Of a DNA stretch of 64,000 bases, positions 4,720 through 34,700 are shown one piece after another; position 1 is the stretch's first letter; the number at the start of each line of letters is the position of its first letter. Source of the DNA: Candidatus Liberimonas magnetica. GTDB taxonomy: Bacteria > Elusimicrobiota > Endomicrobiia > Endomicrobiales > JAFGIL01. Position numbers and translations under genes: made by a program. The notes under the pieces were generated by a model. That model saw nothing but the letters and a program-made list of their open reading frames with translations. It was not told the DNA's origin and searched no databases. The stretch is from positions 62,001 to 126,000 of the forward strand of contig JAJAPY010000001.1 of NCBI GenBank assembly GCA_020523885.1, written 5' to 3'.

Positions 4720-4733
4720 AGTTGGGCTTTTTT
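4702..4733 (+). terminator. Intrinsic terminator or attenuator just before giant gene 1
   Basis: GCCCAACT, a 10-base loop, AGTTGGGC, then six T residues. The loop and 3' arm overlap the stop codon of the 190-residue gene (4717-4719), and the T-tract ends 17 bases before the giant ATG, leaving only the GGAGG ribosome site. Ribosomes finishing the upstream gene would cover the hairpin, so translation-coupled read-through is a plausible control. Confidence 0.75.
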
Positions 4734-7700: not shown

Positions 7701-10700
7701 ATTTAAACGATGAGATAATAGGAAAAATAGATGATGCTGTCCGTGAGTTATATAAAACCGATGTAAAGCAGGCTACTGCAATTGCAGCTATGAATTATAT
7801 AGGCTCAATGTATAAAGGCAGTTATGCATTTTATGGCAATGCAGCTGTTGCATTTGCCTGGTTTATAAAAAGTCAAAATAATCCTTCAACCGCAAAATCT
7901 GCAATTTATATTTACAATGCGGCGCTCAATAATTTTGAAAGAATGCTCAAGGACCCTGATGTCCCGACAGGAGATGAATACCAGACTTACCGGACTATGA
8001 GCCAGCTATGCAGTGATATTAGTGAAATTGCATTTAAAACAGGCGACACTGCTCAAGCAAAAGATTATTCCGGCAGAGCGGTTGAATATACCAGAAAGTC
8101 TAAAGGATATGCAGCAGGAGCAGCAGCAGCTGCTCCTGTTAAGGATCAATCTGCTTCAGCTATGCTTAAAAGAGGCAATACTCTGGCGGGTATAGGCAAA
8201 TATAAAGAAGCAAAAACTTGTTATGAACAGGCAATTACGCTTTCCGAAAAGGCCGGAGATAGTAATGATATGCTTATCATCCGGGGTGATGCATTAAATG
8301 CGCTGGGTTGTTTATATCGAGAAATAGGAGATTTAAAGAAAGCCGAAAAAGTCCATTTACAGGCCTTGACAATAGGTAACAGTATAGACGACTACAGGAT
8401 GAAGGCTGTAGCGCTTGGTAATTTAGGCCTTGTAGAACTTAATAATTCTAATTTTAAAAAAGCAGAAGATTATATTGAACAAACGATACAAATCGCCAGG
8501 GAAAACGATGACAAAAAGAAGATAGCTGTTGGTTTGCATAATCTCGGGACCGTTCAAGAAAAAATGGGAAAGCTGGATAAGGCAGAAAAATCACATGAGG
8601 AGTCTATTAGGATTGCCAAAGACAATAATCTTGCCAGAACTGAAATGATGACATTAATTGATCTTGGCAGTCTTTATAGAACAAGAGCTAACAATGATAA
8701 AGCTAACCGTAAAAGTTTATTGGCTAAATCCATAGATTTTCAGGATAGAGCCATAGCAATCGCAAGAGCCCTTGGAGATAAGGGACAGGAAGCTGTTGCT
8801 CTTTTAAACAAAGCAAATTCCACAACAGATTTAGGCAAATTTACAGAAGCAATAACTTCCTATAATCAGGTTCTTTCAATAATGCAGGAACTGAATTTTG
8901 AATCGAATGATACAACCTGGCGTGTTCATCTGGGCCTAGGTCAGTTATATTACACCATGGACAATTATGATGAAGCTTTGAAAAATTTCTCTAAATCGCT
9001 TGAATTGATAAAAGAAAAGGTAAAAGCCTTAAATATCAGAAATGACGATGCGGGTTTCTGGAATGAACATGAGATGGGATATTATTGGATGATTTGGGCC
9101 TGCCTGAAAAAAGGCGACTTGGAAAATGCTTATAAATATCACTTGGAAAATCTCGAGATACTTGCTGCTGCCCCAAATGAAAATCCCGAGGCAATTGAAT
9201 ATTTGAAAAAAATGACTAAAGCAGGCCTTGAGGAATATTACTTCCAATATAAAGCGTACCTATTTAAAGAAGAAGCTGCCCCGGCGGCTCCAACAGCAGG
9301 AGTGATTAATAATTTAAACGAATTAAAGGACGGGCAGTATGTGGCGCTGGATATCGGTATTTATCAAGTAAAGATAAATACCGGCAAAATTTCGTTCGTA
9401 AATGCTGACGGCGAGTATGCGCCTTCTGACACAAAAGCCGGCGACGTCAAAGAAGTGCTTAAGCCCGCTGACCCCCGGGTACAGGCATTCGAACTGGTTA
9501 TGGCAAAAGTAAAAAGAGCAGCGTCAGATCAAGCTCGCACCCGGCAAGCAGCTTCAGCTGAACCGCAGGCAAAAACCGCAGAGAAAATACCTTTTGCCAG
9601 GTTGCTTAATTCGGATGCTGTTCTGGCTCAAGACGGCAGGCTTGGCAAGATCCTTAACATCAATAAGGTTTGGGGAAGCCTCGAAGCTTCGGAAAAAGCG
9701 GAACTGGTAAGGCAGTTAACAGAAGTTGACTATGATGCATTTAAATGGACGGACCGTTCGCTTTTTGAAACAAACAAAGCGGATTGGATGAAAAAGTTAT
9801 CCGATGTGGACCAAAACATATATGTTTTATTTGACAATAATGGAGCAGTTAAAGGTTTTAGCAGAGTTGAAGAAACTCCTAATGATAAGATTGTTGTGCT
9901 TGACAGGATAGCTGCTTATCAAAAAGACAACGAAAGAGGCAGGGGGACTTTTTTGATGGATACGCTTTTAGGGCAATTAAAAGCTATGGATAAAAAAGAG
10001 GTAAGCTTAATGCCAGTAGATGAGGCAGCTACGAAATATTATATTTCTTATTTAAAGGAAAAGGCATATTATAAAATAGATTATGGTTATTTTATTATTC
10101 ACCTGGACACTTTTAAAAATCTTACCCCTGAACAATTAAAAGAAAACAATGATAATTATAAGGCCAATAGAAATGTGGGTAAATTTATAATAATTAATGG
10201 GGTTGTCTGGGTTATTAACCGAATATGGCCTGATGGAAAGGTCCAAATTAAAGATGCAAACCCTGAAGACGACGAAGAAGTAACTGAAAAGACCATAAAT
10301 CCAAGTGAAATACAAAAAATTTACGAGACAAAGGAGAATGCAGAAGCAGCGGTTCATCCTGCCTCGCCTCTTGCAGCTGCAGCTGAAGTTCTGAAAGCAG
10401 CACTTCCTATTCCTGATTTAGGTGCACCTGCTGGTGCTCCAAAAGAAGAAGCACCGGCTCAGCCTGAAGTCAAACCAGCAGGAGAAAAGAAAAAAACATT
10501 AAAAACTATCAAAAAGGCTTTTTCTGTAAAACATGAAGACAAAGTAGCATTTACAGGTAGAGTAATTGAGGTTGACGGGCAAACAATGACAGAATATCTC
10601 GGCCAAGATGGCGCTGTGTTTATGGCATTGCCCGGAGATTGTAGTGATAGCGCAATAGGTATGGCTGCTAACTCGTCCGATGGCAGTAGTTCTTTAGGTT

Positions 10701-13700
10701 TGGCAGGAAATAGTAACAAAGCAGGGGCTAGTATTAAAGTCAGCAAAGAAAGTAAAATATTGGGCGCTACTTCGTTGCAAGATAGGCAAACCGGCTTAAA
10801 TATTGATGTAAGAGATGGGAAATCCACAGTTAGTTTTAAAGAAGATAGTTATTCGCCTTATTCAATTAAGGTTTATGAAGTAAATGGAGAAATCAACCAG
10901 ATACTTAATGTTACTTCTTTAACTGACGGAACAATACAAATAGAATTGGCTGATAAGCAAGGCAATCACTACAATATCATTGTACCTGGCTATAAAAACT
11001 CTCAAGAATTCAAAACCTTTGTTTCTGCAGTACAAGCCCGTAAAGCTAATCAGAGGGACGCATCATTGGCGCAAAGCGCTCTTAACGCACAAAATGCTTT
11101 AGCAGGAATAATTAAAACCAAAGTAGAAATCAGCAAACAGGTTGAAGCAGAGGTGAGATATGCACAAGAACAGCCAAAAACTCCTATAAAAGTGTCTAAG
11201 CCTGAAGTCAAACCGGCGCCGGATGTTCAAGCTGTTGTAGCCAGGGTAATAGGAAGGGCTAAAGAACTTGATAAAACTATGACAGATGCTGATATTTTGA
11301 AAATAGTTGATGCTCATATTAATCTGGCTAGTAAAGGTGCAGATACGCTTATACATAAAATTAGCGAATACTCTAATACCGTTGATATAGCTTTTACAGA
11401 AGCACCGGAAGAATTTAGTGCCCTGCGTCAAAATCAATTGCTCCTAATGAATGTTCTTAGAGCTATGCAAAAGCAATTAGCTCAGGCGGTTTCCGCAGCT
11501 GAAAATGCTAGGAAAAATTCTGAAAGGCTTGCGCAAGCGCAAGCTGCGGATGCTGCAGCAAAAGTCGCAGCAAGAAAGTCAAAACTTATTGATTCTTTTG
11601 TTACAAGGTTTAGAGATGCTGTTGGCAGCGCTCCCAATGACGCAGAAATGAAGGAGATACTTAGAATTGCAGATAAAGCTGCCAAAGACCTATCCCAAAT
11701 GGGGGAAGCTAATACGGAATTTGCAGCATTGACTCATCGTGTATCGCAAGCAAAAGCTGCGGCAAAGCAGGCTGCTGCGGCTCAGGCAAGAAAAGCGCTA
11801 AGGCCCGGGTATAAAGAAGTCACGGTAAGGCTAAAACCCGGACAAAAATTACAAGGTATAGGCTATATATATGATAGTGAACCTCACACCTATATAGATG
11901 AGAATACATTTACACTGGAAAATAATTCAGACAGTGACAGAGTAGTGAGTTTTTATGCCAGAGATAATTATAGGGTTTTATGGAATTCTTCAAAGCCTGC
12001 AGACAGGGTTTACGGCAGGGTAGGTTTCGGTACATCTTTAACTGCTACGATAGATCTTGCAAGAAATCCAATAACGATACAGACCGGCGGACAAACTCTA
12101 ACAGTAACCCCTGCCTATGCGATCTTTACAGGTAATGTAACGCCGGTTTTCGGTGAAACTGCTTTCCAGGCCTGGGCAAGAAAAACAGGTTTTGTCACGT
12201 TTGAAATAAGGAAGGAAGGCAGCGACCTTGTCGTACGGGACGAAAAGAATAATGTCGTTAAAAGAGGAACAAATTTAGAGCTGTTTTTTGAAGGGGTCAT
12301 GTATAAGGCGGTAAGGAACCAGGATGGAACATATAATTTGACGGCAGTAAACGAGCAATCAGGGAATGTCTGGTGTATTGATTATCCAAGCATTAGTTAT
12401 GAAACGGATAGCACTAAAAAGGCCCAGAACCTTCTTTTCGGGCAGAGCTTAGCCTTCCATGAAGGCATGCAATATTCTTTTTATAATGAAAGCAATGAAC
12501 CTGTATGGTTCAGCATCGATAAAATCGAAGGCACGGAAAAAGGATATACGATAACATATATGGGTAAAGATGGGGCTCGTACAACATCTGATTTTTTTAA
12601 TGACACATATAATTTATATGGATTAACTATAACAAGGGACAAACAAGGAAATTTCAGCATAGTAAATTCAAATTATGAAAACGGAAAAGATATAGGTTAT
12701 GCAGAGGGCAGTATTTCTACCCCCAAAAAAGTAACCCCTTCCCAGCCGGCTGCACCTGCCCTGGCGCCGGCTATAATCACTGAACGCCCCAAGGTAGGAA
12801 GATGTATAGCTCAGGGTGATGTTCACGGAGAATTGGACGGCCTGATAGAAAACCTGCGCCAGGCAGGTTTAATAAGGCAAGTTGAAAAAGTCGAGAAAAA
12901 GGGTTTGCTTGGCAAGAAAGTCGTCACTTTGCAATGGGAATGGATAGGTACAGATGTTGAATTTGTTCAAATGGGCGACATTATTGACAAGGGGCCGAAG
13001 TCGGTTGAAGCATATAAATTCATGCAGGATATGCAAAAGCAGGCTAAAGCCAAAGGCTGTAAAGTGGTCCGCCTTTTGGGTAATCATGAGTTGGCGATAT
13101 TGCAGGGGAATTATCAATTTGCCGTACCGGAAAGAGAACTTATAAAAACAGTAAAAAGTGAAGCTGAATTGGAAGCGAAAAAACAAGAACTTAGGAAACA
13201 AGCAGATGAAATAAGAGCCCTATTAATTCAAGATATAAAGGAAGGCAAAGTACAGGCGGCTCATGTTTACGGGGACAGGCTGTTCATTCACAGCGGATTG
13301 ACTCCGCTTGTCGGGATAAAAATAATCAGAGGAATATTAGATGATAAGGGTGTTCCCAGCGTCAATGACCTGTTTAAGAAGATAGCTGTAGATGCTCTAA
13401 ATAAGGGAATGCTGCAAAAGTTCCCTCAGTTTAGTAATCTAACGCCTGCAGATATAAATAGTATGACTGCAGATCAATTGGATCTTATTATAGCGAACAT
13501 CGGCATAACGCTTGAAGATATAGTCAGGCAGGCTAACCTGACTATAAAGCTGGAAGATATAGCATCAAGCATTAACACGGTATTTACGGATTGTGTTGTT
13601 AATTTCAATGATTTTAAACATAATAGCCATCCGATTTTTTGGATTCCACCCGAGCGCTCCGGTCCCGGTTTCACTCCTGATCCTGCCGGAGGTATATTCT

Positions 13701-16700
13701 GGGCTGATTATAGTAAACTCTCGATGTCTCTTGGAATAAAACAAGTTGTAGGGCATACTCCTGAGATTACTCCTGAAGGGGAAAAGATAAAAGGCCAGAA
13801 AGGCAGGATGTCAGCGGATGCGGGTCTGATAAATATAGACGCCGGTTTGACCGAATACTACGGCGGAAACAATATTTTCCTGGAAATAGATGCAAATAGC
13901 AATAAAATTAATTTATGGAACAAGGCTGGTACAGGCTGGGAAAAAGATAAAGCCCTAGATTTTATGCCTGCCCAGCAGGCCGGCGGGCAGAAAATGTCGG
14001 CGCTCGGAGCGGGCGTGGCTATGGTGCTTGAAGCTGTTGAAAAAACCGTAAACCCGGCCGGGCCTGTTATTAAAAAAGAAGCGGTTGAGCTGGCAAAAGC
14101 GCTTATTGAATTGTTCAGGTCGCAGAAGTGGGGAAAGAATGTAACCAGCGATGGGAAGTACAGCGAAATCATTAAATTAAAAGCATCATTGGCATCAGAG
14201 GGTATCACTGACATAGAGATATGGGAGAACCCGAAGCTGATCCTGGATAAAGCCCATTACGCCCTTGCTACCATAGACGGCAATACCTTAATATTAAATT
14301 CAGTTTTAGCGGATGCTCTCCTGCGTGCGCCTCCGAAAGGCCACAAAGCGTTATTAGAAGCCCTTATTACGCTTGCTCAGCATGAAAAGCTGGAAGACGA
14401 AGCATTAAATAAACCCGGCTCAGCGATATATGACGCTTTTTCAAAATATATCGAACCGCCTGAAAATATTGAACTGTCTGCTAATAGAGGTTTGCTGCGC
14501 GAAGCCTATACAGCGGCTTATAAAGAGGTTACAGGACAGGCTTCTCAAACAGGAGCGGAGGTTGACACCTTAATCTCTAATGCACTAACCATGGTTACTG
14601 CCGGTATGCCTTTATCTTTTGCATTTGACGTAATCAAAAATAAGGCAAGAGAACTGGCAGAACGGACTATAGCAAAAGATAAAGAAGACCTGGTAAATGC
14701 CCTATCAATGTGGGCATTTGTTAATGAAAAGAACCTGGTTTCTGCCAAGCAGGGTTTAGAAACCCGGATACCTGTTCCCATACAAGGCATAGAAGACCTG
14801 CTAAAAAAACATAAAGATAAATACGGCGAAAAGGCAAAGCAGTTGGAAGCCGAGATGAAGTTAAAAGGACAGCAATACCTTGATGCCTCTTCCAAAAAAG
14901 ACACTCCTCAGTATATCCTGGATGAACTTCACAATGATTATCAATTGGCTGAACAGCGTTTGTTTGCCGCTGTAGCAGGGTATCTGATAGCTAATGAAGA
15001 CAGTGCGGTTATTAAGTCTATTATTTTGCGGTACCATGAACTGGCAGATACCGGAAAAGACAGAGAAGCAGCTCTTGTGAAGTCTATAATAGCCAAAGGA
15101 GCCAAGTCTTGTGCAGCACTATCAAGCCTGGGCGAGCAGGATATCGCAGAGCAGATAGCTCAGCAGCAAACACCCGTACAGCAGAAAGCTGCTGCGCCGG
15201 AATTTGATTTTTCGCTCGGTTCGCTTGAAATGCGCACTGCTCTTGAAAACAAAGTATCAAAAGCTTACCTGGATGCCGTTGAGGAGCATTTAAAGGCATC
15301 GGTTCAGTCCTTGTCTCATCAAAGCTTTAACAGAGTTATCCTTGTAGCTGATCCGGTTAATTCAATACCGAAAATGGTCCAGGGACTGGGAACCAATATG
15401 CCCGCAGTTTCTGTTAAGGGCGAAAGGGCAATGTATACTGTCCAGGTAACAATGCCGGACGGAAGTATACAGAATATCTTATTTATAGATGCCCGTTTTG
15501 TAGGTGATTCGGTATCTTTGTATAACGTTTCTCCGGAGCTTGCGTTTGAGTATATGGACAATCATATTATCAAGGCAGGCTATAAGAGGAATGCCAGCAT
15601 ACCTATGCTAAACCGCGATGATTTAATGCCGCTATCCCTGATAATGGAACAACTGCAGCTCCTGCCCAGGGCCGGGTTAAGGGCAGCTGCAATGCAGTAC
15701 TGGAATCAGACCCATGTCTATAACCCGAATTTTGCACCTTCGATGCCTGCAGGTACGGTACATAAAGCGATAGAAAAGGACAAAATGCAGTATAGGCGCG
15801 GTTTATATGATGAAATAAAAGCAGCGGCATCGAGTGAACCGAGTGCAATAACAACCCTGCTCAGGAGCCTGCAGGTAGAAAATATGAGCGAAGATGAATT
15901 ATGGCAGTTTGTAAGCATAATGACTGATACTATAGCGGATATAGACAGGGAGTATGCCAAAGCCAAAGCTGCACAGTCAGGTACGGTTGCGGCAGCGGCA
16001 ACAACAGCAGGAGCATCCGTTGTAGATATTGTTCGCGGACTTGCAGGACGTAAAACGCCTATTCAAGCTCCTCCTGCGGCCCGGAAGAGGCAGGCTGTCA
16101 AAGAAGTATCTTTGGGAACGGTTTCTTTAAGAGAATTGCTGGCTGTACCTGCTGCCAAAATCAGCGAGTTTAATGGAGATATAGGCAGATTAACCGTTGT
16201 AATTGACAGCGTATTGAAAGAAACCGGTTCCGAACTTACAGAGCAAAAAAGGCTTGAACTCTTCAGAGAATTGAGGGATTATTTGAAAGCAGGCAGTTTT
16301 ACTACTGCTGACCCTCAAATACAAAGGATGGTTGTCCGGATCATGACTTTGCAGTTTAAAATTTTAGACTCTATGAATATCCCGGCACAAACGCACCGTG
16401 CCATACTGTATTATGCAAATACTGCGCAACTGTTATTATTGGAATTGGGAGATTCCGTAAAATCAAGACAAACACTGTTTTTTGACCTGCTCAACGCTCC
16501 TCCTGCAGCCTGGCCGTCTATTATTTATACGCCTCAAACAATGAGTGAAAATGGGCTTACAATCGCAATAGTATTCCTTTATTTACACAGGGATGACAGC
16601 CAGATATCTAAGGAAGCGATGGACACTGCGGCGAAAGTAGTAGCTAATTTAGGTTTGAGAGAAGGTAAAGGCCTTACACCCTTGAGCATGCAAAAGGCAT

Positions 16701-19700
16701 TTGTTCAAGCAGGGTTAGATGCTCCGGATACTGCCAACGCGGCTGCTCTTATCGGGCATTTGACAATAATGGCTGCTCTTGCCAATAATATTGAAATAGA
16801 GCTGGCCGGAAAAGGGTTACCGTCTGTTGTAAAATCCAAATATGAATTACTTGCCGTAGAGTTGTTGAAAGGCCAGGCGACTTCCGGGCATATCCAGGAT
16901 ATATGTAAAATGATGTTTCCTGATGCAAAAGGAATCGAACAAATCAGCGATTATTTAATGTCTTTTAGAGAACCTTATAAAATCCTTTCAAAAAGTGTCG
17001 TCGGGTTTACCGAGTTATTGGCCCCTATAGAACAGCCTGCTGCTTTGCAAGGTAGCGAAGCAGTCCCGGGAAAAAAAGAAGAGGCAGAACTTCCCAAGGA
17101 AGCCCTGCCGACCATACCGGCAGAGTTTATTGCCGGCGGCGAAGTACAGGTGTTATTAGAAAGATTCATCAAAAAGGGCGATGTCAAAAAAATAGTAAGT
17201 GCTTATAATCATATAGTGAAAAATGGGCTGAGTTACGAAGAATTGGAAAAGGTACTGCCGCCTTATATAAACGATGATATTATAGACAAGATCCATGATG
17301 CTTTATTCCAACTCTATAGCACTGATCAGGACCAGGCTATAGCCGCTGCTTTCATTAACCAGATGATGGCCAGGTCCAGGTCTAAAAGTGACGGAATATA
17401 TAGCAATTGTTCTAATAAGCTGGCCTGGTTTTTAGATCAACAGAAAAAACCTTCACTGGCGCTCTATACGGTTTACTTTTATCAAGAAGCAATAAAAGCT
17501 TATGGGAAAATGCTAGGCACACCTGATGCCGAAGGCCAGGAAAAATTAATTTATGGCCTTATAGGCACAGCCTATGTGAACATAGGCCAGGTGTTGGCGG
17601 ACAAAGGCGAGACTGATAAAGCAGCAGTTTGTTATGAACAGGCGATCACTGTATCAGAAAAGAGCGATAAAAAACGCCAGGCTACCGTTACCGGTGATTC
17701 CCTTAATGCTTTGGGCAATATAGAGTATGACAAAGGGAGTTTCCTTAAAGCCAGGGGATTATTCATGCAAGCTTTAAAAATAGCCGAGGAAATGAAAGAC
17801 GACAGGTTACGGAATGCGGCGCTCGGCAATTTGGGCCTGGTCGAGGATAGAAGCGGTAATTTTGAAGAAGCTGTAAAATACTATGAAAAGGCGCTTGAGA
17901 TCAGCAGGCAGATAAATCATACACGGGCTACGGCACGCCATTTAAACCATCTCGGGAATGCCTTTTCGGCTCAAATAGGCATATCATCCGACGTACGAGC
18001 CAATAAAAAATTAGCCGAACGGGCGGAAAAATGCCATCAGGAAGCTCTTGAAATTGCCGAGAAAAATAATTTTACCGGGACTAAAGGCGGGGCGCTGGAT
18101 AACCTTGCCATGGTGTATGCTGACATGGCTAAATTGACATCTAATCCTAATGAACGCGCAGGCTTATTTGCCAAGGCGGTAAGGTATCACAGGCGGGCCA
18201 TAGAAGTTGCAGAAAATTCGGGAAATACCGCTGCTACTCATCTTCTTAGTCTGGGCAATACTTTAAAAGATTCGGGCAATACCGACGAAGCCCTGGCAGC
18301 CTATAAACAGGCTCTATCAAAACTGCAGGGAGCGCAATTGATTACGGATGATACGACCTGGCGCATTTATTATGCCATGGGTAAATTGTATTATGAAGCA
18401 GGTTATTATGAAGCGGCTTATGAAAAATATCTTAACTCACTGCGCCGGATAGAAGACCGGGCAGTAGCCTCTAATGTCAGCGCCAGCGATATGGGCTACA
18501 CGCGGGAAACAGGTATGGTATTTTTTTATATGGTTTTAGCGTGCCTGCGTAACGGTGATGTAAAAACAGCCTTCGAATACCATAAGCGATATCTCAAGCT
18601 AATGACTCTTCTGAAGGGAGTTTCACCTCAGCAATTGATAAAACTTATGGGCGTAACGGAAGGGAACATTTCTGGGATTTATTTTAAATCAGAAGAGGCG
18701 CAGGGTTCCACACCCAAAACCCAGCCTGCTTCAGGCCGGGCAAAAGGTGCTCTTGGTGCTTTGGGTAAAGCTGTATCTTCCGCGCTCGGGCGTACGGCAA
18801 AGAAGCCTGCTGATGTAAAGGAAGAGCAGTTCGATACTGCTGCTGACCAGCAGATACAGGACGCAAAGACGACCATTGAGAATATAATCGCAGAGCTTGG
18901 CAAATACCCTCCTTATAATGTACCTGCTGACAAAAGCGCTGACATAGAGAAAAGGTTAAGGCAGATAATAGACGATTTTTCATCAGTTGTTGACCCTGCA
19001 TTGGCGCAGAACAGGGAACTTACGCACTTTGAAGCAAAAATGTGCCATCTGATATCCCTGGCCTACAGCCATCTGGTAGAAATAACCGACCCTAAAGAAT
19101 TAAGCGTGGTCAATAATTATTACAGCCTTTCCCTGAAGTATTTAAATCTGGCTCTTAAAGATACCAGCCATCCGGATTTCTGGAAATTTAAAGTATGGGA
19201 AGCGGAGCTACATGCAGAGTTGGCAAAGGTTGTGGAAAGGTATTTACAGCCCCTTCCTTCCATGAGTAGGGACGAAGTGAAGAAAGAGCTTATTTCAATG
19301 AAAGCTAATTACCAAAAGTCCAACAAGGTATTCAGCGAGCTGGGGATATATATACCGCAGGATATATGGGCTAAGCAAGGTTATGACGTATATTCAAGGA
19401 CACGGCAAACAGAAACTGCAAATTTTTATAATAACTGTACCGGCTTATTGCAGAAGCTGGATACGGAATATGCAAGCTATACAGATGAAGAGCTGGTAAA
19501 AGCCGTTGCAGAGGAATTGTTAATTACAAAAAAGAAGTTATACGCATTTGAAAAAGGCGACGATACTGAAGTAATAAATAACATTATTGCAAAACTCAAT
19601 GAATTAAGAAACAGCGAGCCGCGGATTACCCAGACTCTTATTGATTATATCAGCAGTCTGGGCCAGTATGTTATTATTGCCGGCGGTATACGGGCTGTGG

Positions 19701-22700
19701 AAACTTTGATGGATCATTCTTTGCCTTTAACACCGGATGATAGGAAAAGAATGAAGATAATGATAGCGGATGCGTATGTTACGGACATAAGATCAGGCAA
19801 TTTCATAGCTCTTAACGACCTAAAAAACAAGGTCCCTGACATAAGCGCTGAAACTTTAGTAAAGATGGCACAAAAGTATGCCAAGGTTTCTCTTAACCGC
19901 AGGGAGCTTGCGGCTGTAGGTACTGAAGGCGGTAAAAAATATAATCTAGGCCTGCTTGGCGAGTTTGACGGCAGTAATAATAAAGTGCTTGCGCAGACTA
20001 TTAACAGCGATGGGACACGCGAGTTTGTTGTTATAAGCAAGATAGAGGTAAAAGACGGCGTACCCATGGTAACGTACGGCACTCTTGAGAGATGGAAAAC
20101 AGTGAGTGCTGAAGAATTAAACAAGCGTTTTACAGGGCTTGTATTAGTTCAGTATCCTGACCAGCTCGGAAAACCTATACCATTCACCCCTGCACCGGCC
20201 GTGGAAGCAGAGACTCCTGTTCCTGGGCAGGATTTACAATTGGCTGATGAGTTAAGCTCGGCATTTGTAAAGGCCTATGAGGCAATTGCAAAGGATCTTC
20301 CTACAATAGATGATAACATCAAACAGTTAATTGCAGATACTGTTAAGTCAGCTTCTACAGGTGTGCCTTTGCCTCTTCTCATTGAATCTGTCAAAGCTGC
20401 GGCAGAAAAACTGGCAAGGGAAGCTGTAAATGCGGCCAAGGAGCCCGCTCTTGAGGCAAAGCCGCTTACTTCGTCAGAAATACTGTCACAAACATGGCCT
20501 GCGGGCGGAAACTTGAACTTTATTGCAGGCAAGGAAGTGCTGGCCTTATTAATACAATGTAATATCAAAGAGGCTGATGCCAAAAAAATAGTAACTGCCT
20601 ATAATACTGTTGTGAAAGGCCAGATAACTCCCGAGAAGCTGGACCAGCAGCTTGGGAATATCCTGCCGTCCTACATAGACTCAGCTATGTTAGACAATAT
20701 TTATGATGAAATAAATAAACTTATGAGCGCTAATCCGGAACAGGCTATAGCGGCTATGTTTATTAACCAGGTTTTATCTAAGTTTAAAGGCGATACCCGC
20801 TGCTACGGCTCTTCAAGTAATTTATTAGGATGGCTTTTAAAGAATAAACAGGACTCTTCAAGAACGCCCTATGCAATTTATTATTATCAAGAGGCCATAA
20901 AAACTTATGAAAGCGGCCTTGAATTATTGCCGGCTGAAGGAATGGATGAACATACCAGGGAAACAAGTGAATTATACTATGGCCTTGTAGGTGAAATGTA
21001 TTTGCGGTTGGCTGATCTCATGGGAAGAGACGGTGATACCGCCAAAGCAGAGGCTTGTTTTAAACAGGCAATTGCTGTGTCAGAAAAGACTGATAAAGTA
21101 AAGAAATCTGCAATCCTTAGCGAAGCCTATAGTGGTATCGGTTTAGGCGGGATATATTATGCTAAAAGAGATTTCAAAAAAGCTAAAGAATTATATACCG
21201 AAGCTTTACGGTTGGCAAATAATGACAGATTAAAACGTTTAGCATTCAGCTCTTTAGGCCAGGTTGAGGAGAAATTCGGGAATTTAGAAGCAGCCATAAA
21301 ATATCATGAACAGGCTCTAGAAAAAAGCAGGCTGGTAGGCAGTCCGAAAGCAACAGCAGGCCATTTAGAAGATCTTGGTATTGCCCTTAGCGGTCATGCT
21401 CAGCAATTGGCTACCCAAGGCAAACAATATCGAGAAAAATCAACTGAGTTTTTTAACAGGGCTGAAAAATGTTATTTAGAAGCTGTGAAAATTGCTGATG
21501 AAAATAATCTTATTGGAACTAATAATGCAATAAGCAACCTTGGTATTTTGTATTATGATTGGGCTAGATTGACATCTGAGACAAGTGAAAAGAAAAAATT
21601 ATTAGCTCAGGCTATAGAGTATCAGGGGCGGGCCGCAAAAACTGCAGAAAGCTCCGGGAATACGCTTAAGGAAGCTATTTGTCTTCTTAATCTTGGCAAT
21701 GCCTTAAAAGATTTTGGCAATATAGACGAAGCATTGAAAACCTATAAACAGGCTCTGTCAAAACTACAGGGTTCTAAAGTAACTACGGATGATACGTCCT
21801 GGCGCATATATTATGCCATGGGTAAACTGTTTTATGAAAAAAAGGAATATAATTCAGCTTATGATTGTTATTATAATTCTATAAAACAGACAGAATCCCG
21901 GACAGCAGCCTCTAATATTAGCGCTAATGACGCAGGCTATTGGGCAGATAAGATGCCTTTATATTTTAATATGGTTTTAACATGTCTGCATATGGATAAT
22001 ATAGAAAAAGCTTTGGAATATAACAGCGAGTATAAAAAAATATGGGTTTCATCGGGAAATTCTGACAAGGAATTCAATGCTATTACTAAGGCTAACATTC
22101 GTGAGCGTTATTTTGCAGCAGAAAAAGCCCAGGCTGTTCCAGGCCAGGCAAAAGATGTTCTTAGGGTTTTTGGAAAAGCTGTAACTTCTGCAATTGGGCA
22201 TACGGCCAAGGCGGCAGAACAAGAACCCAAATCAAAACCTAAAGCTCCTGCGCAAAATACCCAGGTAACAGAATCAGCGGTACTGAGAATAAATCTTAAT
22301 GAGATAAGAGATTATTTTATAAAAGATGCCAAGGAAACTTTTGGTTTTTCTGAACAAGACATAGTCGATGCTATTAACAGATTAGCGTTACAAAACCCTG
22401 AAAAGGCTATAGAAATAGTATTTAATGCTGCCCAGAAAACTGATGCTGCCTTTGCTTTAAAAGAGGCATTTCTTCATTTTGAGCTAGATAAAGATTACTT
22501 TATGGACCATACCAACGTATATAACGTCATTATTAAAGATATATATGATAAATTAATACAACAGAAACAAGCACAACAGACAAAAACTCCTGAAACGACT
22601 ACGCTCCCGGCGGCTGCCCCTCAACCTGCAATTGTGTCGATAGCGGTGGGCAATTATGTAACAATTGAAGGAAGTGTATGGAAAATTGATAGGATATGGC

Positions 22701-25700
22701 CGGACAAAAAGATACTGCTTACAGATGCATATCCTGAAGATGAGGAAGAAGTATCTGAAAAAACAGTAGGTTTAAGCGAAGTGCAAGGGGTTTTCACTAC
22801 TAAAGAGGAGGCAGAAGCATCAAAGAAAGGCCATGCAACTGCGCAGGAAATAATTAGGGGACGGAGTCAACTTGTCAATTTAACAGGTTCAAAAACCGAC
22901 TCTGGCACAGCCTTGACCCTTCCCGCGAACCGCCAGGCTGCGGATGAATTAAGGAATTCTTTAAGAAAAGATAATATAAGTAACAAGGCATTGAATTGGC
23001 TGTACAACCGTGGATATGTAGAGTTTAGGGTTGGGTTATTTGTAGGTAAAATAGAATTTTTCAGGACGCTTAATCCCCTAGAGTTCTTTAAAGACCATTA
23101 CAGGGGAGTAGGAGCGTACGAACGCGGAGAAGTTCTAAGAGCGCTTGGTATAGGAGCAATATGGGCAGGTATGCTGGGTGCCGGGACACTGGCATTTTTG
23201 GCGAGTTTAGGCTTGGGTCTGCCGTTGGTTAGTGTATTAATAGGTATAGCGGCAGGTGTTGCGGGGAACATCATTACCCACGGGGTATATAATACCATAT
23301 TTACATATGCACCTCTTACGCTCGGCCGTTATGCACAAGAGGAAGCGGAAAAGCGTTATACCTCCGATGAAATTATTAGAGATATAGAAACGCTGCTTGA
23401 TTTCTATAGAGAGACTATGGCGGCAAACAAACCAAATCAGGCTAAGCTGAGAGATTTCGAACTTTTAAGAGATGGTATAAAAGAGGTGTTGAGTAAGAAA
23501 CGATATATTCCTACAGGGTGGGGACAGAAGTTGAATGACTTATCTGCAAAAGTAGAACGAGCTATAAGACAGATAAACACCCAACCTGGAGTTCAGCTTG
23601 TAGAAGAAGCTGCGAAGCCTGCCTATGAAACTGAGGATAAAGGTGGAACAGTCTCTACTAGGCCAAGAGATTATTATTCAAGGGGCACTATATCTGATGA
23701 AATACAAACTATATCTTTGAGTATAGATGAGATTATGAGGCAAAAAGTGCCGGGTGCAAATAAGATAGCGGCATTAGAGAGAATCAAGCCTAAAATAGAT
23801 GCCATCTTAGGCGGCAAATCCGGCACAGTAACAGGGACAGAGAGGTTGGAATTAGGCAATTTATTAAACAGGATAGAACAATTACAGGCAAGCTTAAAAC
23901 AGGAAGCAAAACCTGCGCCTGCTCCTGCAAAAAAGAAAGGTTTTTTAGGTTTGAGCTTATTTGGTTCGCTGCATCAGATAGCAAGGGATAAGGCTGCGGC
24001 AAGCACCGGCATCAAGAAAGTGGGGTGGAGTACAGCAGCAGTGCTTACAATAGGCTGGTCAACGCCCTGGCTTGCGGCTATAACCGAGACGCTAGGGTTA
24101 AGCCTGTTATATCCTGTAGTACTTGGATTCGACCCGACCGGGCTTAGCTGGATAGTAATAGCAGTTGTATTTGCCATAATACATCCGGACAATTTTATCG
24201 GAAACAGGAGTTTTAAGGATTTTGCAAAGAAAACAGGAAAAAGGATAGGAGCTTCGCTTATTGTGGTGGGCTTACCTTTTATATTTGGACAATCTCAATT
24301 TGAAGCAGCAATTGCAAGCCTTGCGGGGCATTTACTATGGAACGTAATTGCCAAGCCTTTAGGCCAGCCTGAGCTGGATTTAGGGTATGTTGGTGCCGGC
24401 GGCGCGGCCCAAGAAACAGCTGATATTGCAAGCCAGGTTCCAGCACCTGCCGGGAAAACTGGTCAAAAAGCAGAAACTGCCGTCAGAGGAACAGCGGTTC
24501 CCGCAGCAGCCTCAGATTGGATAGCCGAAGATCTTTGGCAGAAGTTTTGTGAAGAAAACAGAGGCAGGCCTCCCCATATAATAGAGTATAAGGGCCCTAT
24601 TAGTGTTATGGATAACGCAGTAAATAAACAACTTGTCTCCCTAAATCCTGATGACCTTGCCTGTATTATTATGGAATCAAGAGGATCCGATATAATTCAC
24701 CACAAAATTGTAGTAGGAAAAGTTAAAAATCTAATGCCCATAGAATTTGTAAATATCCGGATGAAAAAAGGTTTCCCTTTTTCATTTACTATGCATTCTG
24801 AATACTCTGTCAGGGGAAATGTTTTATACCTTGAATATGCCAGAATCAAGGATAGCTTAAAAGGGGAACACCTCTTCTCAAAAACAATGGAAAAAAATGT
24901 TACTACTTTAAGTAAAAAATATCCAGGGAGTAGGTTTGTATCTATTCCTTTACAGGCTTCTATGGAACATTTATTGAAAAAATACTATGGAGCAAGAATT
25001 GCTGCTAGAGATGAGATTTCACACCTCACTCAACTTTTTAATAATCTTGTAGAGTTGCCTGATGGAACTGTTATGATCGGCGAAACGCCCCGATATGATG
25101 AAAAATTGGGCCGGGTAATCCTTCCTGAAATAAAAACCCCCGGTTTTAATATCAGCCACTTCCCAAGTATTCCCGGCCTTACCAATGAACAAATTACAAA
25201 AATTCTTGATATTTTATCACAATATGACGATATTGATAATGTTTATCTATATGGGGATAGGGTAAGAGGCGACTCTGGAAAGTTAGAAATGTATATTACG
25301 CTAAGTGATAGGCAGGATGAAAGATATGTTGAAAGAATACAAGAAAGAATTAGAATGGTAATTAACGTTGAAGTAGAAGGTTACCCGCCCATGAAAGATG
25401 TTGCTCTGGATATTGTAGTAAAATTTTTAGCGCAACAAAGTAGTGTTATTCAAATTATGAAGGATGGCAAAATATTAGATACTCCAAAAGTTTTTACGGA
25501 AAAAGGCGAACAAAAACCCTCTGAGGCTGCTACGACGCTTTTAACCTTGGACCTTGGCAGGTGGCTTGGGTTTTCTGACCAGAAGACGAGGTTATTGCTT
25601 GCGCCGATTGCCGTATGGGAAAATGTGGTTATGAGCTTTGCGCCGTTCCTGTTCGGGAAGATACACGAGCAGTACGATGCCGATAAACAAAACAAACTTA

Positions 25701-28700
25701 CAAAATTTGCCTGGCTGAATGCGGTCATCTCGCTTGCTGCCGGGTTGGCGCTTGGTACATTATGGCTGGTAACTGGCATGGGTCCGGTGCTTGCTATAGC
25801 CGGTGGATTGATTGTATGGCTTGGCATAATGCCGGTGCTCGGCCACGGGCTGTGGGACTGGGGCCCGTGGGGAAATACGATGTGGCGTGGCAGGATAAAT
25901 CCCGAGGCTATACCTGCTACTACCGGCAGGTTTGAGTTTATACCTAATGATCAAATAAAGAAAATGATAGCAGATATAGATTGGCTGGGTTTGTATGACA
26001 CTGCAACATATGCTCAAAACCTGATAGATACAATTATATTGCCGTTTATCGCAGAGGTTCGCAGTAATCGGAATCTTACGCTTGAAGATCAAATAAAAGC
26101 TTTGGAAGGAGTGCAAAGGTTTATAGAAGCGGTATTTAACGATCAGGTTCCATTGTTAAAACCGTATTATTTGGGCAAATCCAATATATTGCAGGCTTTC
26201 TATTTTAATCAATTATTGCCTACTATAGGACAATTAAAACAAGAACAGCACAAAGAGTCGGCACAAGAAAGAAAAAATGGATGGATTGGAAAGGGTGTGG
26301 AGTTGGTTGTTACGGATACACTTGTTAACGCAGCTGGGATTAATGAAATGCTTGGCCGGAATTTAGCTGTAGTTTCCAGAGCGATAACAACTGCAATAAT
26401 TCCGAATATAAATAAAATAGCGCCGGAAAATATTAAGGAAAGGCAGGAAGACAGAAAAATAACATTTGATGGTAAAATTATAACAATAAGGACATATAAA
26501 GGTAAAGTAATACAAACACAAACAGCAGAAGGTGTGGCAGGATTTGCAACATTTAGCGATGACGGGGTTACACTGTCTGTATCAGAAGGTTTCTGGGAAC
26601 TATGGGATGAGAGACAACCAAGTGATATTACCGATGATGAACTTAGAGTAGTTATTAGACACGAATTTGGCGAAAATAAAGCTCGCCAAGGGAATGATGA
26701 TGGATTTAACAGATATTTAGAAAATGCCAGGGCACAAATGTCCAAAGAGTTTAAAGATAGTGCTTTTGCAACTAGAGCAGTTGAAGAAATAGCCCAAAAT
26801 CTACCTATTCAAAATTTCATAAAACTTTACCACGCATATAGGACGTCATTAAATGACGATGAAGCCGAGCTTATCAAAAAAGCAGAACATATGGTAGATT
26901 TTGAAATATCAATGATTGATTTTATGCCAACCGATGAAATTATAAGTTTCTTCCCTAGCGTTAAACTGGCCGTAAATACCACAACCAATCTTAGTTATAT
27001 AATTGACAAAACTGAGTCTGCTCTCAGACAACAACAAAACAAGGAAAATGCTTTAGCCTTGATTAGCCAAGGCGGAGATCTGGCTGAATTAATTTCCGCC
27101 ATAAAACTTACTCCTATTAAGACTCCGGTTGGCCCCTCATATATAGCCACTGGCGACTTGGTAGCTCCTATTGTTGATGCTTTTGTTCAAGCATCAATAA
27201 CAATGGATGAAGATAATACAACGGATCTGTTATCTATATCGTTGGAAAAATTGATCGAAGTATGCAGTCAGAATAATGATAATTCGGATAAGGCAACATA
27301 TGTATTGCGTACCCTTTTACTAAATGATGGCGCTCATCGTATAAGAGCTATTACGATAAACCTTTTAGATAAAATGGAAAAAGAGGGCAAGTATCCCACT
27401 AATGGCACAATTAAAGATATTATTTACGGGGTATCAGTTAACGAAACTGATACAACTGTCCTTAAAAAAACATTTGATATCGCATTGAAGAAATTAGAGA
27501 GATTGGCAATAAAATCTCAACAGATAAAAACTGCAGATGGATCAAAGGATCCACAATATCAGGCTTATATGGAACTAAACAATATCTTTGTTGATTTTCT
27601 GGTATACATCTGCAAAAAAATAAATGACAATGACAGCCAAGCCGGAAAAGAAATGTTACATACTTTATCTACAATGATCGATGAAAACCGGTTTGGCGAT
27701 GATATTTCTTCGGAATTTGTTTCTAAGATTATGCAAAATACAGGGAATGATCCCCAAATATTAAAATTTATTTTAGGAAAAATTACAGGGTTAGATGAAG
27801 ATAAAGAGCTGTTAATGCAAATGATGGTGCCAAACGCTCCAATCGGACAAATAATTACCTATTTATCTGAACATGGCTTGGATAATGAGAGGTTGGGGTA
27901 TTTAATAATACGTGAAAACAAAGCAAATTTGGATTTGTTAAGAAATATTATAAATTCCGATGCAATTGATCCTCGGTTCAGATTTTATGCTTTGACATGT
28001 TTTACAGGCCAAGTTAATAAACCAGAAAATGAAGACCAATCAATAAAAGAGATTGCTGAAATGACAGACAAGTTAAGACCATATGCAATACATTTTATAG
28101 AGACCATGGTTTCTGCACAGGGATGGAGAGAAAAACTATTTAGTAACTTCTGGCTGCAGGATGAAGAGGCAAAGGTCTATGTAATGGCAGTTATTCTTTC
28201 TATGTCAACAATAAAAGATGTACCTCAATTGAATGATCCCGAGACATTCTTAAGAATAATGGCACGCAATAATAAGACTATAATCAGAGAATACCTGGAT
28301 AATGCATATAGCGACTTTGTATTAGGCGGAAATTTAATGAAAAAGGAGTCAAACAGGTTCTTTTTCCAGACTATAGCCCATGAAGTGGGGCATAACGTTC
28401 TTGTTGAACAGGAATACGTTTCTGGAGGATTAAAAGCAAATACATTTCATGAATTAGTTGCTGATTTATGCGCACTTGCATTTTCTGATTTGTTTAAATG
28501 GGAAACAGATGAGTTCAAAACTATGCTTAGATTCTCAAGCCTATTTCAGCAGGCAAAAGACTGGTATCAGTTCAATATTAAGGAAGAACATTTGGGTGCC
28601 AGGGCTATATTAGTCCTTTTAGAGAAATCATATCCTCTGCATAAATTTAACTGGCCAAGGTTGTTAAATAGTGTTTTATTCGTGTTATATGAAAGAGATA

Positions 28701-31700
28701 TTGATACTGAAAATAATTTGCAAAATTTTATGGACCAAGTGTTGCAGCAATATATCTTTAGTAGAGAAGTATACACCGGATGTTTGAAAAAATCTACAGG
28801 ATCTATTTTTACAAGAATAATAAGTTCTTTTATGTTTTCACCAAGAGCTAAAGATAGTTTTAACATATTTTTTAGCGGCAACGATGAGTTTGAAGAATTA
28901 ATAAAGACGATACAAGCCCATGCCACAATTGCTGCCACTACGCCTGCCACATATGAAGTAGGAAGGAAGCTTGGGTTTAGTGATAGTTTTACAAGGAAGT
29001 ACCTTGCGCCGGTTGCCGTATGGGAAAATGTGGTTATGAGCTTTGCGCCGTTCCTGTTCGGGAAGATACACGAGCAGTACGATGCCGATAAACAAAACAA
29101 ACTTACAAAATTTGCCTGGCTGAATGCGGTCATCTCGCTTGCTGCCGGGTTGGCGCTTGGTACATTATGGCTGGTAACTGGCATGGGTCCGGTGCTTGCT
29201 ATAGCCGGTGGATTGATTGTATGGCTTGGCATAATGCCGGTGCTCGGCCACGGGCTGTGGGACTGGGGCCCGTGGGGAAATACGATGTGGCGTGGCAGGA
29301 TAAATCCCGAGGCTATACCTGCTACTACCGGCAGGTTTGAGTTTATACCTAATGATCAAATAAAGAAAATGATAGCAGATATAGATTGGCTGGGTTTGTA
29401 TGACACTGCAACATATGCTCAAAACCTGATAGATACAATTATATTGCCGTTTATCGCAGAGGTTCGCAGTAATCGGAATCTTACGCTTGAAGATCAAATA
29501 AAAGCTTTGGAAGGAGTGCAAAGGTTTATAGAAGCGGTATTTAACGATCAGGTTCCATTGTTAAAACCGTATTATTTGGGCAAATCCAATATATTGCAGG
29601 CTTTCTATTTTAATCAATTATTGCCTACTATAGGACAATTAAAACAAGAACAGATGCAAAGAGAAGGTGGAAAAGGAAGAGGCTTTTCTGGTCGTTTGGG
29701 ACTGGGTATCGGTACTGTAAAGGATATAGTAAACGCTGTGCTGAGCCTGGCAAAGATAGATGCGGTTGTAAATATAGCTTATTTATCAGCAAGATTAGCC
29801 AAGGCCGGGCTTTCTGCTGATGAGCAGGGCGTAAGGTATGCCAGCCATGATGAAACAGGTAAGGTAAAAATAGAGGCTTCGGCAGGGGCTCTTGATAAGC
29901 TTGATAGAAAAATAGAAAAAGTCGTGTCTTTTGATTTTGATGGGGTTCTTTCGGAAGTTACACAATATGGAACTGCTGAACTGGTATCCCTGGTAAAATA
30001 TTGCAAGGAACATGGTATTAAAATTGTTGTTGCTACAACGACAAAGGCTTTAGGAGTTAACGATTTACAAATATTCTCCATGTTGTGCGGTATAAGCACA
30101 AGTGAAATTGATATTAATTCCGTAGATTTAAAGGAGGATAAATCAAAGCTGGCTGTATTACACAAGAAGTATCCTGAAGCAGATATAATCCACATTGATG
30201 ACGATAATACTTTAGCGACGCATGGATACAGCGGTAGGCTCTCCGGGTTGGCAGACATATATAAACGGTTGGAGAAAGATTTAGCTATAACAGCCAGGAT
30301 AGAGCGGCACGAAAAAATGGAGTTTAATGCGCTGAAAGTCATGGAACTCAAATCCGCTGAAGAGGCACAAGGTGAGGCAAGGCTACTTGCCGGATACTTA
30401 ACACAGCCGCAGCAGAAAAAAGAGTTTAAGGATGCAACTTACGAGGACTGGCATAAATGTGTAAAAGCAATAGCTGAACAAGCCCTGAAAGCTAATGTAT
30501 ATTCCGGAAGTTTCACGGTGTGGGGCATAACTATTGAAGACGTTACGCCGTACATCAGTGATGCGAAGCTTATCAATGCCATGGAGCTAAACATAATTGA
30601 TGAAATTATAAATGCCTTAAAAGAACTGGTTCCTGCCGTTGCAGGACAATTAGCCAAAATTTCCGCAAAGGCTGTGCTCGACCAATTAGCCAATGCAGAA
30701 GAGCCCGGCGCAGAATTAAACGAAAAGGAAATAAAAGAAACCATTGAAGAATTAAAAACATTTATAGGGGATATTTGCAATAGTACAAGAGAAATAGTAA
30801 TTAAAGCCCGCGAAAAGGGCGGGGATGCAAAAGATAGAGAAGAATATTTAAACGGTATTGAATCAGCGGTTGCAAGAACAGAACGGTTGATTCCTTCTTT
30901 TGACGAACTTTTTGAATTTATAAATAAAGGTAGTCATATTGAGCCGTATATATTTAGTGAACAGAGTATTCAAGAGATATTTAATAATATACCCGCCCGC
31001 GCTGGTTATAAAGGGAAACTTACGGTAAATATTGAACAAGGCGTAAGCTTTTCCAAAACCAACATATTCCTGATTGAACATACCATTTTAAGAGAGCTGC
31101 TTACCAATGCTGTAAAATATGGCAAAGAAGAAATAATAGTGGCTGTAAAGAAAGACAAAACCGGAAATATCGTTATTGGAGTTTCTAATATTATGATGAG
31201 TGCCGATGAGCTAAAGGCAAAAACTATTTCCAGTTCAGGAATGGGAACTCAATTGCTAAAGCATTTAGAGGAATTATTCGGTGAGGGCTATGCCTATCCT
31301 TCTCCTGTGAAAAGGCCGGTCCTCCAGGGACAAGAAGAGTATGTAGCAACTGTTACGATACCTGACACTGAACCTAAAGGCAATATATATGCATTTGTAG
31401 AAAGCACTTTGTTTCATGAAGTTGGTAATGGCATATATCTAATGCTTGGGAATTTCGAGATGGCTCAGCAAGATAACGTTGTAGACCTGAAGGATACTAT
31501 CTGGGAAGATCTGTATGGATGCACAAAACAATTGGCAGCATTACGTGAGAAGTTAAAGGGCTTGGTAACAACAGAACAGAAATTAAGGGAGCTGTTCTTG
31601 AATTGGCAAAAACGCCCTGATCCTTTAGAAATAAGGAGTTTATCCAATGAAGAAATTGAAGCTGCTGCCAGGCTTTTTGGAGTGAAAGATATTAGTAAAT

Positions 31701-34700
31701 TTGAAAACTCGCTTACTTTCAAGGAACTGGACAACTTATTACCTTATATCTATGAAGTCGTTGAACGGATCCTGGATGAATATAAGGGGCAGAAAATAAT
31801 CGTCTTTGGCCGGGATGGTGAAATTTTTTACGATGCTTTACGTACTGTCCTTGAAGGGTCTCCTGAGCAGGATAATGTAATATTATTCCCGGGCAGCCGT
31901 GCTTTCTGGCAGAATGAAGATATGACCGAACAAGAGCAGAAAAGGTTTTTAGAGAGTCTGGGGATCACAAGGCAGGCTCTTGACCGCGGTGAAAAATTTG
32001 TACTGCTTGATGCAGGTTTCAATGGTTCTCTTGCCAATCATGTTCAGTATATTATTTTACATAATTATGGTTATTCGGCTAGTTCTGAAAATGATGTAGA
32101 CCGCGTACGGAAAGCGCTTCCAAACCTGGTTCTTGGTAATTTACCGGGTATGAGGGGCATGTCTTTTGCATCAGAAATAATGCCCTTTGATGTAGAGGCT
32201 CAAGAGCTGAAAAAATTATTCCCTAAAACATTTCCCGCGGCTGTAAAAGGAGCAATTTATGCTGAACCAACAGCAAACTATATTTTTGCATTTGCTTTAC
32301 AATTGTTACCGAAATTTCATGATTTTTATAAGAAAATGATTGAACAGGATGACGGCAGTTTAATTGCGGTCCCTGAAAATAAGGCTGTTGTATCACCACT
32401 AGCGGATATTGATACTAAAACAAACCCGGACGATTCCCTGGTTAACCCTCTGGCTGCGCTGTTGATTCAAAAAAGAGTTGCCGAATATTTTGGTGCCAGA
32501 AAAGCAGATCTGTTATCCAGGTTAACAAGCAGGGCGGCTGCTCCAGCTGCTGAGCATGAAGGTGCAAAAATTGAAAGGGCAAAAACAGAACAAAACAAGA
32601 TTAATTTATGCCAAAAACTATCCGCTCTTTTAGAGACCCGTTTCGGCATTACTGGGCATGAAGATTTCAGTAAATTTCCTATGATAGAGGGGGAAATCGA
32701 AACAGTGGAAGCCGGGACAAGGATTATTACGAAGGATACAGATGCAGATTACGTATATCTGCTTTTGGATGGAAGGGTTAAAATTGAAAAGCCTATAGAC
32801 GAAGGTATTATCAGGTATGAGATCTCATCAGGAAACCTCTTTGGCGAGTTTGCCATGACGGCTTTTAACCAGAAACGTTCAGCAAATGTAGATTCTGTAG
32901 ATAGAGTTACATATCTTAAAATACCTATAAGTTCACTAAGGACCAAGGAAAGTGCAAGATTTGTCAAGTTAGTAGCAAAATATGTTGGTGCTGTTAATAA
33001 TGGCAATGAGCGTTTGGCCGGTCTTATAGAGAATAAGGATCTGAATGAACCGATAATAGGCAAACAAGGCATAACAATCACTGTGCGTCAACTTCCTGGT
33101 AAACCTGATGAATATGAAGTTATGGATAAAGATGGGAAAATTTTATATAAGGGGAATGTAATCTACTTGCCGCCTGCACGAAAACGCGAGTTTACGGGGT
33201 TTGGGTCTATTACTCAGATAATAAATGAAGTGCCGGGTTTAATTGCAGCAGCAGCGGCAAAAAGAGGGTTGGCTAGTGAAGAAATAAAAAGCTTAATGGA
33301 CCTTATTGATATGGAAGCATCTCTATCTATCGAGATGGACTTATTCACGACTTATTATCATAATTACGCACATACTTTGATAGTAACTTACGCTATATTA
33401 CACATGCTCCCCCGGGGCTTGCCTAAAAAAGATATTAAAACCGCTGTCCTTGGCGCTTTAAGGCATGATTTTGATATAAGGACAGCCGGGAAACAAGCGA
33501 ATGTAGGAAGGACAATAGCTCAACTTAGAGCGATACGTTCGCAGATTCCGTTAGATTTGGCAAAAAGCGGGGTCTTGGACATAATGAGTATAGGAGAAAT
33601 TTCAGAACTAAACAAAGCCATGCAGGCTTTTATGGCCGGGGATGTAGATTTTGATGAAATAGAAGCGGAAATTTTAAGAACAGATTTTAAGTCAAAGCCA
33701 AAAGCCTCAAATTCTTACGCCGCGTATCTTTGGCCTGACGCTGATAAAAGGAATACGGAAGTAGAAGCAATAAATGGATTGATAGGAGAAATGCGTCAAG
33801 CAACTGCGGATTTTGCCAACGGCCTAGAAACAGCAGAAGAACAAGCAGAAAGGACAGCAGAAGCAATCAGGACAAAACTGAAAGAAGTTAGAAGCCTGGC
33901 TAATAACCTGTCAGATTCAGTATTTGCAAGACGGTATTTTGAAAAGAGAATAGGTGAAATATTCTTTGCCGGAAAACCAAGAGGAGAGCTTAGCCCGGGA
34001 CAACAAAAAGAGTTTGACACCTATATAGAAGACTGGATAATTTTATGTAAAGGGCTTGAAATAGAGCTGGATTATTATGAATCATTGAAGAAGGTCGATA
34101 AAAAAAGACGCCGGGCGGTAAATCTCTATGCGACCCTAATATCAAAGGGTTGTGACCAGGCAGGGTTTACCTGGCTGTGTAAGCCTCTTGTAATAAATGA
34201 TACTGTAAAAGGTATGGCGCAGGAAGGGATTGCTGCATCTGCTGCAGGTAATTTTGTATTTTTTTATTACCAGGAATTGCTGGATTTGAAAAAACCTGAA
34301 GTCAGAACATTCCTTGAAAGTCTGCCTGAATGGGCGCTCAACATCTTTTTTAATAACATGAGATATTATGCAGATGTGTCGGATGCAGCAGGATTTGTCA
34401 AAGACAACCCAAAACACTGGTCACAAGAGTGGGAGAGGATAAAAACTGAAATACTTGAACTGCGAAACCCCGGCATTGAAAGGATGCCGGCACCGGGCGC
34501 GGCCGCGGCTAAAGCAGGCCTTTCTACAGCCATGACAAAACAAGTAAACCGCAGGGCTGAACCAGGGATGAGAAAGTGGCTTGACAAACAAAACATAACA
34601 AAAAAATGGATAAGAGCGCCGCTTGTTGCTGCTGCCAGATACATAGCTGATGAGCAGTTTATGGGCCCTGCGCTTGAAGCAGGTGAGCTTACTAAAATAA

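Follow-up and report, generated by a model that had tools for sequence, protein, structure and literature searches.

Very large genes are known from the Elusimicrobia (PMC11573180, PMC12057145), and a role as weapon or adhesin has been suggested for the giant proteins of the Omnitrophota (PMC10066038), as far as the accessible portions of these reports show. The 64,000-nucleotide stretch analyzed here (the window; C1:62001-126000 of the Candidatus Liberimonas magnetica assembly) carries one complete gene of this kind, giant 1, and the beginning of a second, giant 2, in a genome of 3.39 Mb that is assembled in 29 contigs and is 97.8% complete. These genes resemble the described Elusimicrobiota and Omnitrophota giants (PMC11573180; PMC10066038; West-Roberts et al. 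2023 as cited in PMC12057145) in their very long frames, their membrane segments, and their occurrence several to a genome in the same or sister phyla. They differ in having a constant N-terminal head domain and an enzyme mosaic, neither of which is described in the accessible portions of PMC11573180, PMC10066038, and PMC12057145, and giant 1, giant 2, and a sister gene, giant 3, yielded none of the adhesion and carbohydrate domains that those reports emphasize. Literature searches, from which preprints were excluded, returned no description of the head family. With moderate confidence, we consider giant 1 to be one of a family of paralogs, exported giant mosaics with a TIKI-like head, that is widespread in Endomicrobia and occurs in a few other Elusimicrobiota. 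The members share a signal-peptide-like start and a constant head of ~500 amino acids, and the rest varies from one to another.

Giant 1 (4751-39490; all features of giants 1 and 2 given here are on the plus strand) is a single open frame of 11,579 codons, with GGAGG shortly 5' of its ATG. Its codon-position guanine-plus-cytosine pattern is uniform and coding-like over the entire length. An assembly artefact was rejected as the source of the frame because of this uniformity and because the head is spread over genomes and studies: of 199 genomes sampled from the phylum, 55 have it, as do the assemblies of several studies. Giants 1, 2, and 3 and a giant of a relative (genome G120) have ~550 N-terminal residues in common and little else. 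In its own genome, a profile search found 18 head-bearing frames of 2,423 to 12,656 amino acids, some cut by contig ends, with one internal stop among the head matches; these giants total 122,474 amino acids, or 10.8% of the genome. Many of the 55 genomes are members of the same order but not of its reduced genus g3, two more fall in the same class, and six represent more distant families; few candidates per genome were scored, and copy numbers outside the home genome are therefore lower bounds. In named assemblies, 172 relatives were found with the head profile, and the 80 that were kept are all from Elusimicrobiota, mostly Endomicrobia, and come from several studies; judged by these neighbors, the host is an Endomicrobia-type member of the phylum. 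In genus g3, many of the small genomes (0.6-1.4 Mb) gave no match to the head, and in one the surviving copy is interrupted by five internal stops, a pattern that suggests loss of the head during genome reduction.

The head (4970-6484) has no match in Pfam or NCBIfam, and large stretches of the giants have none in these databases either. Among 43 heads, which are 30-44% identical to giant 1, the residues D119-x-H121, E149, and H521 are invariant; in segment numbering the conserved motifs read Q45-D46-x-H48, E76-G77, and G-G-x-H448, where D46, H48, E76, and H448 correspond to D119, H121, E149, and H521 of giant 1. A structure model of the head (predicted local distance difference test [pLDDT] score, 86.7) gave alpha/beta matches to ChaN (Z 8.1), EreC (7.0), Bcr135 (6.7), and HopBA1 (6.7). 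ChaN, Bcr135, and HopBA1 are listed as relatives in the TIKI superfamily (PMC6254334), and EreC is itself an erythromycin esterase; because these matches belong to the TIKI/Ere superfamily, its fold is suggested for the head. In addition, the His and Glu of the head are 28 residues apart (H121-E149), as are His85 and Glu113 of Bcr135 and His3902 and Glu3930 of VvRRSP (PMC6254334). The head shares with the TIKI/erythromycin-esterase/ChaN superfamily (PMC6254334) the parallel-sheet core matches and the pattern (D/E)xH...28...E...H, but it has Asp for the first Glu of the 2His/2Glu site, carries a large helical insertion (model residues ~138-438), and stands at the N terminus of proteins of up to 12,656 amino acids. 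It is probably a hydrolase of this superfamily acting on ester or peptide bonds, an assignment that residue conservation and the model support and leave unproven.

The N terminus of giant 1 (4890-4980) resembles a signal peptide or anchor, with basic residues, a hydrophobic core of 12-19 amino acids, and then small residues, and this arrangement is family-wide. Of 76 family N termini scanned for hydropathy and motifs, 75 have a basic stretch before the hydrophobic core and 67 have a small-x-Ala motif behind it. Hydropathy places the next strongly hydrophobic stretch of giant 1 not before amino acid ~6131, so that the head, three arrays of tetratricopeptide repeats (TPR), and a PPP-type phosphatase module would lie on one side of the membrane, outside if the signal works. 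Because the number of helices in the middle of giant 1 is uncertain, the cyclic-nucleotide-binding (cNMP) and HD modules may lie on either side. Export would follow the Sec route, and the internal membrane segments may hold the protein at the envelope as a multienzyme scaffold.

A protein presented in this way might also be a weapon for predation or symbiosis, secreted or displayed on the surface, with modules directed at the cell of a host or of prey. Such a role has been proposed for giant proteins of the Omnitrophota and sister phyla, in the accessible portions of PMC10066038 and PMC12057145; secreted effectors include TIKI superfamily domains (PMC6254334); and the absence of head matches from many of the reduced g3 genomes fits as well. 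However, giants 1-3 gave no sign of an adhesin, carbohydrate-binding, or toxin domain, and the modules are ordinary bacterial enzymes; we regard a weapon as unlikely.

The variable parts of the giants are built from solenoids, membrane segments, and enzyme modules. The same modules turn up in different giants, and internal duplications range from about 30% to 99% identity; modules appear to be gained by such duplication and by capture. In giant 3, ADH_N and adenosine deaminase match over the cutoff, and there are traces of PGM and a GlpX-like domain. A giant on contig C17 carries GH2, two UPRTase, PRPP-synthetase-N, and HAD_2 modules, and one on contig C4 carries esterase, cytidine-deaminase-like, M50-like, xylose-isomerase-like, HD, methyltransferase, and TPR modules. 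These two giants (C17:31358-67042, 11,894 amino acids; C4:45028-82998, 12,656 amino acids) both have duplicated kinase-like modules, which the C17 giant combines with enzymes of nucleotide metabolism. Read by eye, the modules of the sister giants mostly keep their catalytic residues (deaminase HxH/HVGED/DDP, GH2 NE/E, esterase GxSxG, and HD HD/H/H/D); a dCMP deaminase module of a sister giant is without PCxxC.

Two other explanations of such mosaics were considered. In the first, each giant would be a bacterial polyprotein, cut into separate enzymes by its own TIKI-like head, CPBP- or M50-like membrane segments, and HExxH zincins. Protease-like motifs do recur, with HEVGH in giant 1 (28379-28393, in a module that recurs in other giants), HEIGH and a CPBP-like segment in giant 2, and M50 in the C4 giant, and modules resemble free-standing enzymes, for example, the standalone PPP relatives of 262-290 amino acids. 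Yet no conserved cleavage-site repeat was noticed, though none was searched for, and there is no clear purpose in exporting a polyprotein of metabolic enzymes, and this explanation seems to us improbable. In the second, which we judge the least likely, with very little probability, captured and duplicated gene pieces would be tolerated in frame while decaying, without adaptive value. The range of internal duplications, the degenerate modules, and the relative's giant with the same head and a different module order are compatible with such growth, but frames of up to 12,656 codons remain open, with the single internal stop mentioned above, and the active site of the PPP module is conserved.

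A first-pass annotation of the window had read giant 1 differently, as one polypeptide that combines an apparently complete PPP phosphatase, HAD motifs, GHKL/DHp-like pieces, a CAP-type cyclic-nucleotide pocket, and an HD phosphodiesterase-like site on TPR and HEAT solenoids and that forms, with a Ser/Thr kinase beginning in giant 2, a fused signaling circuit. The single frame and the TPR solenoids are borne out, as three arrays are far over the Pfam cutoff (8153-9250; 17129-18800 and 20519-22210, both with flanks). The HEAT solenoids are not, with only a match below the cutoff (0.0081) when they were looked for in the part of giant 2 within the window.

The PPP module (12791-13990) reads GDVHG, GDIIDKG, GNHE, HSGL, and GHT and has a Pfam Metallophos match over the cutoff (2.5e-5; amino acids ~2687-2849). 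In an alignment with standalone relatives, all metal-ligand motifs (GDxHG, GDxxD, GNHE, HxGL, and GHT) are kept, as in the Shewanella-type and ApaH-like PPP phosphatases (PDB 2z72 and 1v73), from which the module differs in being embedded in a giant and in having Lys (GDIIDKG) for the phosphate-binding Arg of GDxxDRG. The phosphatase is thus complete in its metal ligands and not in this Arg, a conservative change that would lower the case for a working PPP enzyme only slightly. It retains 49 of 59 near-invariant positions compared with 48 of 201 remaining positions, the pattern expected of a constrained enzyme. The closest free relatives found are mostly of 262-298 amino acids, are 36-46% identical, and come from another Elusimicrobiota family. 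The PPP copies carried by giants from other classes are degenerate, with GDxH lost.

The CRP-type cNMP domain (32699-32941) matches Pfam cNMP_binding (PF00027; amino acids 9317-9397) with an E value of 6e-10 and 39.4 bits against a cutoff of 27.5 (44.2 bits in the genome scan). Its cassette, FGEFAMTAFNQKRSA, has CRP-like spacing, and E9366 and R9376 are present and are conserved in the cNMP module of the G120 giant, in agreement with the proposed pocket. Like CRP- and PKA-type domains, it has the FGE...RSA cassette with CRP-like spacing; in contrast to them, it is followed by an HD-like module, and no DNA-binding domain was seen after it. Both the PPP module and the cNMP pocket look functional. 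In the HD module (33194-33850), the pattern YHNYAH...RHD at amino acids 9536-9573 supplies H9537, H9541, H9572, and D9573, and another giant has a relative of the module, 27% identical, in which these residues are conserved; no Pfam or PDB-sequence match was obtained for this phosphodiesterase-like module, and the fourth ligand, an Asp, was not found. An AlphaFold model of the cNMP and HD modules, with fragments of two relatives as the only alignment, reached a pLDDT of 40 and was not used. The following module, M (33992-34642), accompanies the HD and cNMP modules in the G120 giant too, in a different order; there, at 27-32% identity, the Glu and Arg of the cassette and the three His and the Asp of the HD site are retained.

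The HAD motifs (DFDG, TTT, K, and DDD; 29912-30250) are readable by eye as VSFDFDGVLSE...VVATTT...HIDDDNT at amino acids ~8391-8485, but the profile match (NCBIfam HAD-IIIA, 0.0072) is below the cutoff. The GHKL ATPase (30848-31390) is degenerate rather than active: its N-box and G2 are present, its G1 box reads VIGVSNIMM, without the nucleotide-binding Asp of DxGxG, and Pfam HATPase_c (0.0016) is below the cutoff. PDB sequence searches with the HAD, HD, and GHKL modules gave no matches or chance matches only.

Giant 2 (56147-64000, ending beyond the window; 7,388 amino acids) has the same head, GNAT modules, and a CPBP-like segment. Its kinase-like lobe starts with the loop GIGGFSIV (63902-64000) and is similar in the N-lobe to the methylation-associated defense kinase MAD6 (NCBIfam NF047741; E value, 6e-10); it differs from MAD6 in scoring 38 bits, far below the family cutoff of 460, and in its unconserved catalytic loop. 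The first-pass annotation had expected HRD and DFG beyond position 64,000. There the frame reads LNLYLDDINSMMLDENRGYLVDVEMF, and the lobe is followed by LNLYLDDINSMML...YLVDVEMF, with HRD and DFG both absent; comparison with relatives shows that an Asp may still be matched, depending on the alignment. What stands of the predicted kinase is therefore a glycine-loop lobe. Two other kinases of the same genome have HRD or HGD plus DFG, and among the kinase-like modules of the remaining giants, those on contigs C3 and C23 are near-intact (HND...DFG/DLG), while the degenerate end of the range is found on C17 and C4.

Elsewhere in the genome are two class III cyclase genes (FSDIRGFT...DKFIGDAVMAFWG...MDYTVIGDDVNLASR and a response-regulator fusion), as had been anticipated. 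With Lys/Thr in the positions that set specificity, they are presumably adenylate cyclases (class IIIb). The genome has seven cNMP-binding places, six of them outside the long frames of the giants, and cyclic AMP (cAMP) is probably made in this cell; the cyclases do not show that giant 1 sees it. In the proposed circuit of cAMP and phosphorylation on one scaffold, the cNMP module would sense cAMP, the HD module would destroy it, and the PPP, HAD, and kinase parts would switch substrates held by the TPR arrays. The conserved cNMP pocket, the adenylate-type cyclases and cNMP-binding places, the co-occurrence of cNMP, HD, and M in giant 1 and the relative's giant, the constraint on PPP, and the kinase-like modules of several giants, two with HND...DFG/DLG, are in favor. 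The circuit is nevertheless unsupported because family giants of the same genome hold metabolic and hydrolytic enzymes alike, because a Sec-signal-like start would put PPP outside the cytoplasm, the site of cAMP synthesis, unless later hydrophobic segments recross the membrane, and because giant 2, its supposed kinase partner, has neither HRD nor DFG; the GHKL module without its Asp and the missing fourth HD ligand also count against it. We saw no evidence that the parts of giant 1 act on one another, and such a circuit, while possible, appears quite doubtful.

Further features of giant 1 include a GNAT-like module with linker (9575-10354), of which giant 2 has two copies at 51-55% identity and which has a weak RimI match, and a CPBP-like hydrophobic segment (23141-23300), recognized by hydropathy, with the motif ITHGVYN read by eye. 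A membrane segment at 25598-26257 is 99.4% identical over 661 bp to a second copy at 29003-29663, which could stem from gene conversion, from a duplication of recent date, or from a fault in the local assembly. A hairpin that resembles a terminator and has a T run, GCCCAACT...AGTTGGGCTTTTTT (4702-4733), ends just 5' of the GGAGG and ATG of giant 1, overlaps the 3' end of a membrane-protein-like open reading frame (4147-4719; 190 amino acids), and could be an attenuator in the giant 1 leader. A free-standing HD protein (1699-2598) reads YHDKIH...FHD...TSD and matches the NCBIfam Npun_R2479 HDIG family below the cutoff (1.4e-7); a close relative in G120 is on the same contig as the giant there, ~23 kb away. 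A link between this gene and the HD module of giant 1 is unsupported (hhalign probability, 0.8%).

Several points weigh against the family of exported giant mosaics as we describe it. The fold matches of the head are only moderate, with Foldseek E values above 0.001 that are not significant alone and a highest Z of 8.1. The export call uses hydropathy and a simple motif count, not a trained predictor, and the integrity of modules other than PPP was judged by eye only. The degenerate GHKL module, the giant 2 kinase, the dCMP deaminase, and the PPP copies of other classes indicate that not all cargo is catalytic, and the multienzyme role is one that we infer. More tentatively still, and with somewhat less than even confidence, the exported TIKI-type heads with their changing chains of enzymes and sensors, which occupy up to a tenth of a genome, may form a combinatorial multienzyme system of the envelope that arose via capture, duplication, and exchange. 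Giant 1 would be its phosphatase/cNMP/HD edition, whose cargo chances to contain an HD hydrolase and a cNMP sensor along with a PPP phosphatase that looks functional.

Descriptions of giant bacterial genes usually stress their poor annotation and poor conservation. Here, a catalytic-looking common head marks 18 giants of one genome as one gene family, and it offers a handle for function in the form of an expressible domain of ~500 amino acids with a profile and an active site. The mosaic tails with their recurring modules allow tests of whether the giants are multienzyme scaffolds, polyproteins, weapons, or a gene junkyard. The family also corrects a tempting overreading of one giant as a signaling circuit: some of the signaling parts read in giant 1 do exist, but they are drawn from a deck that also holds metabolic enzymes.

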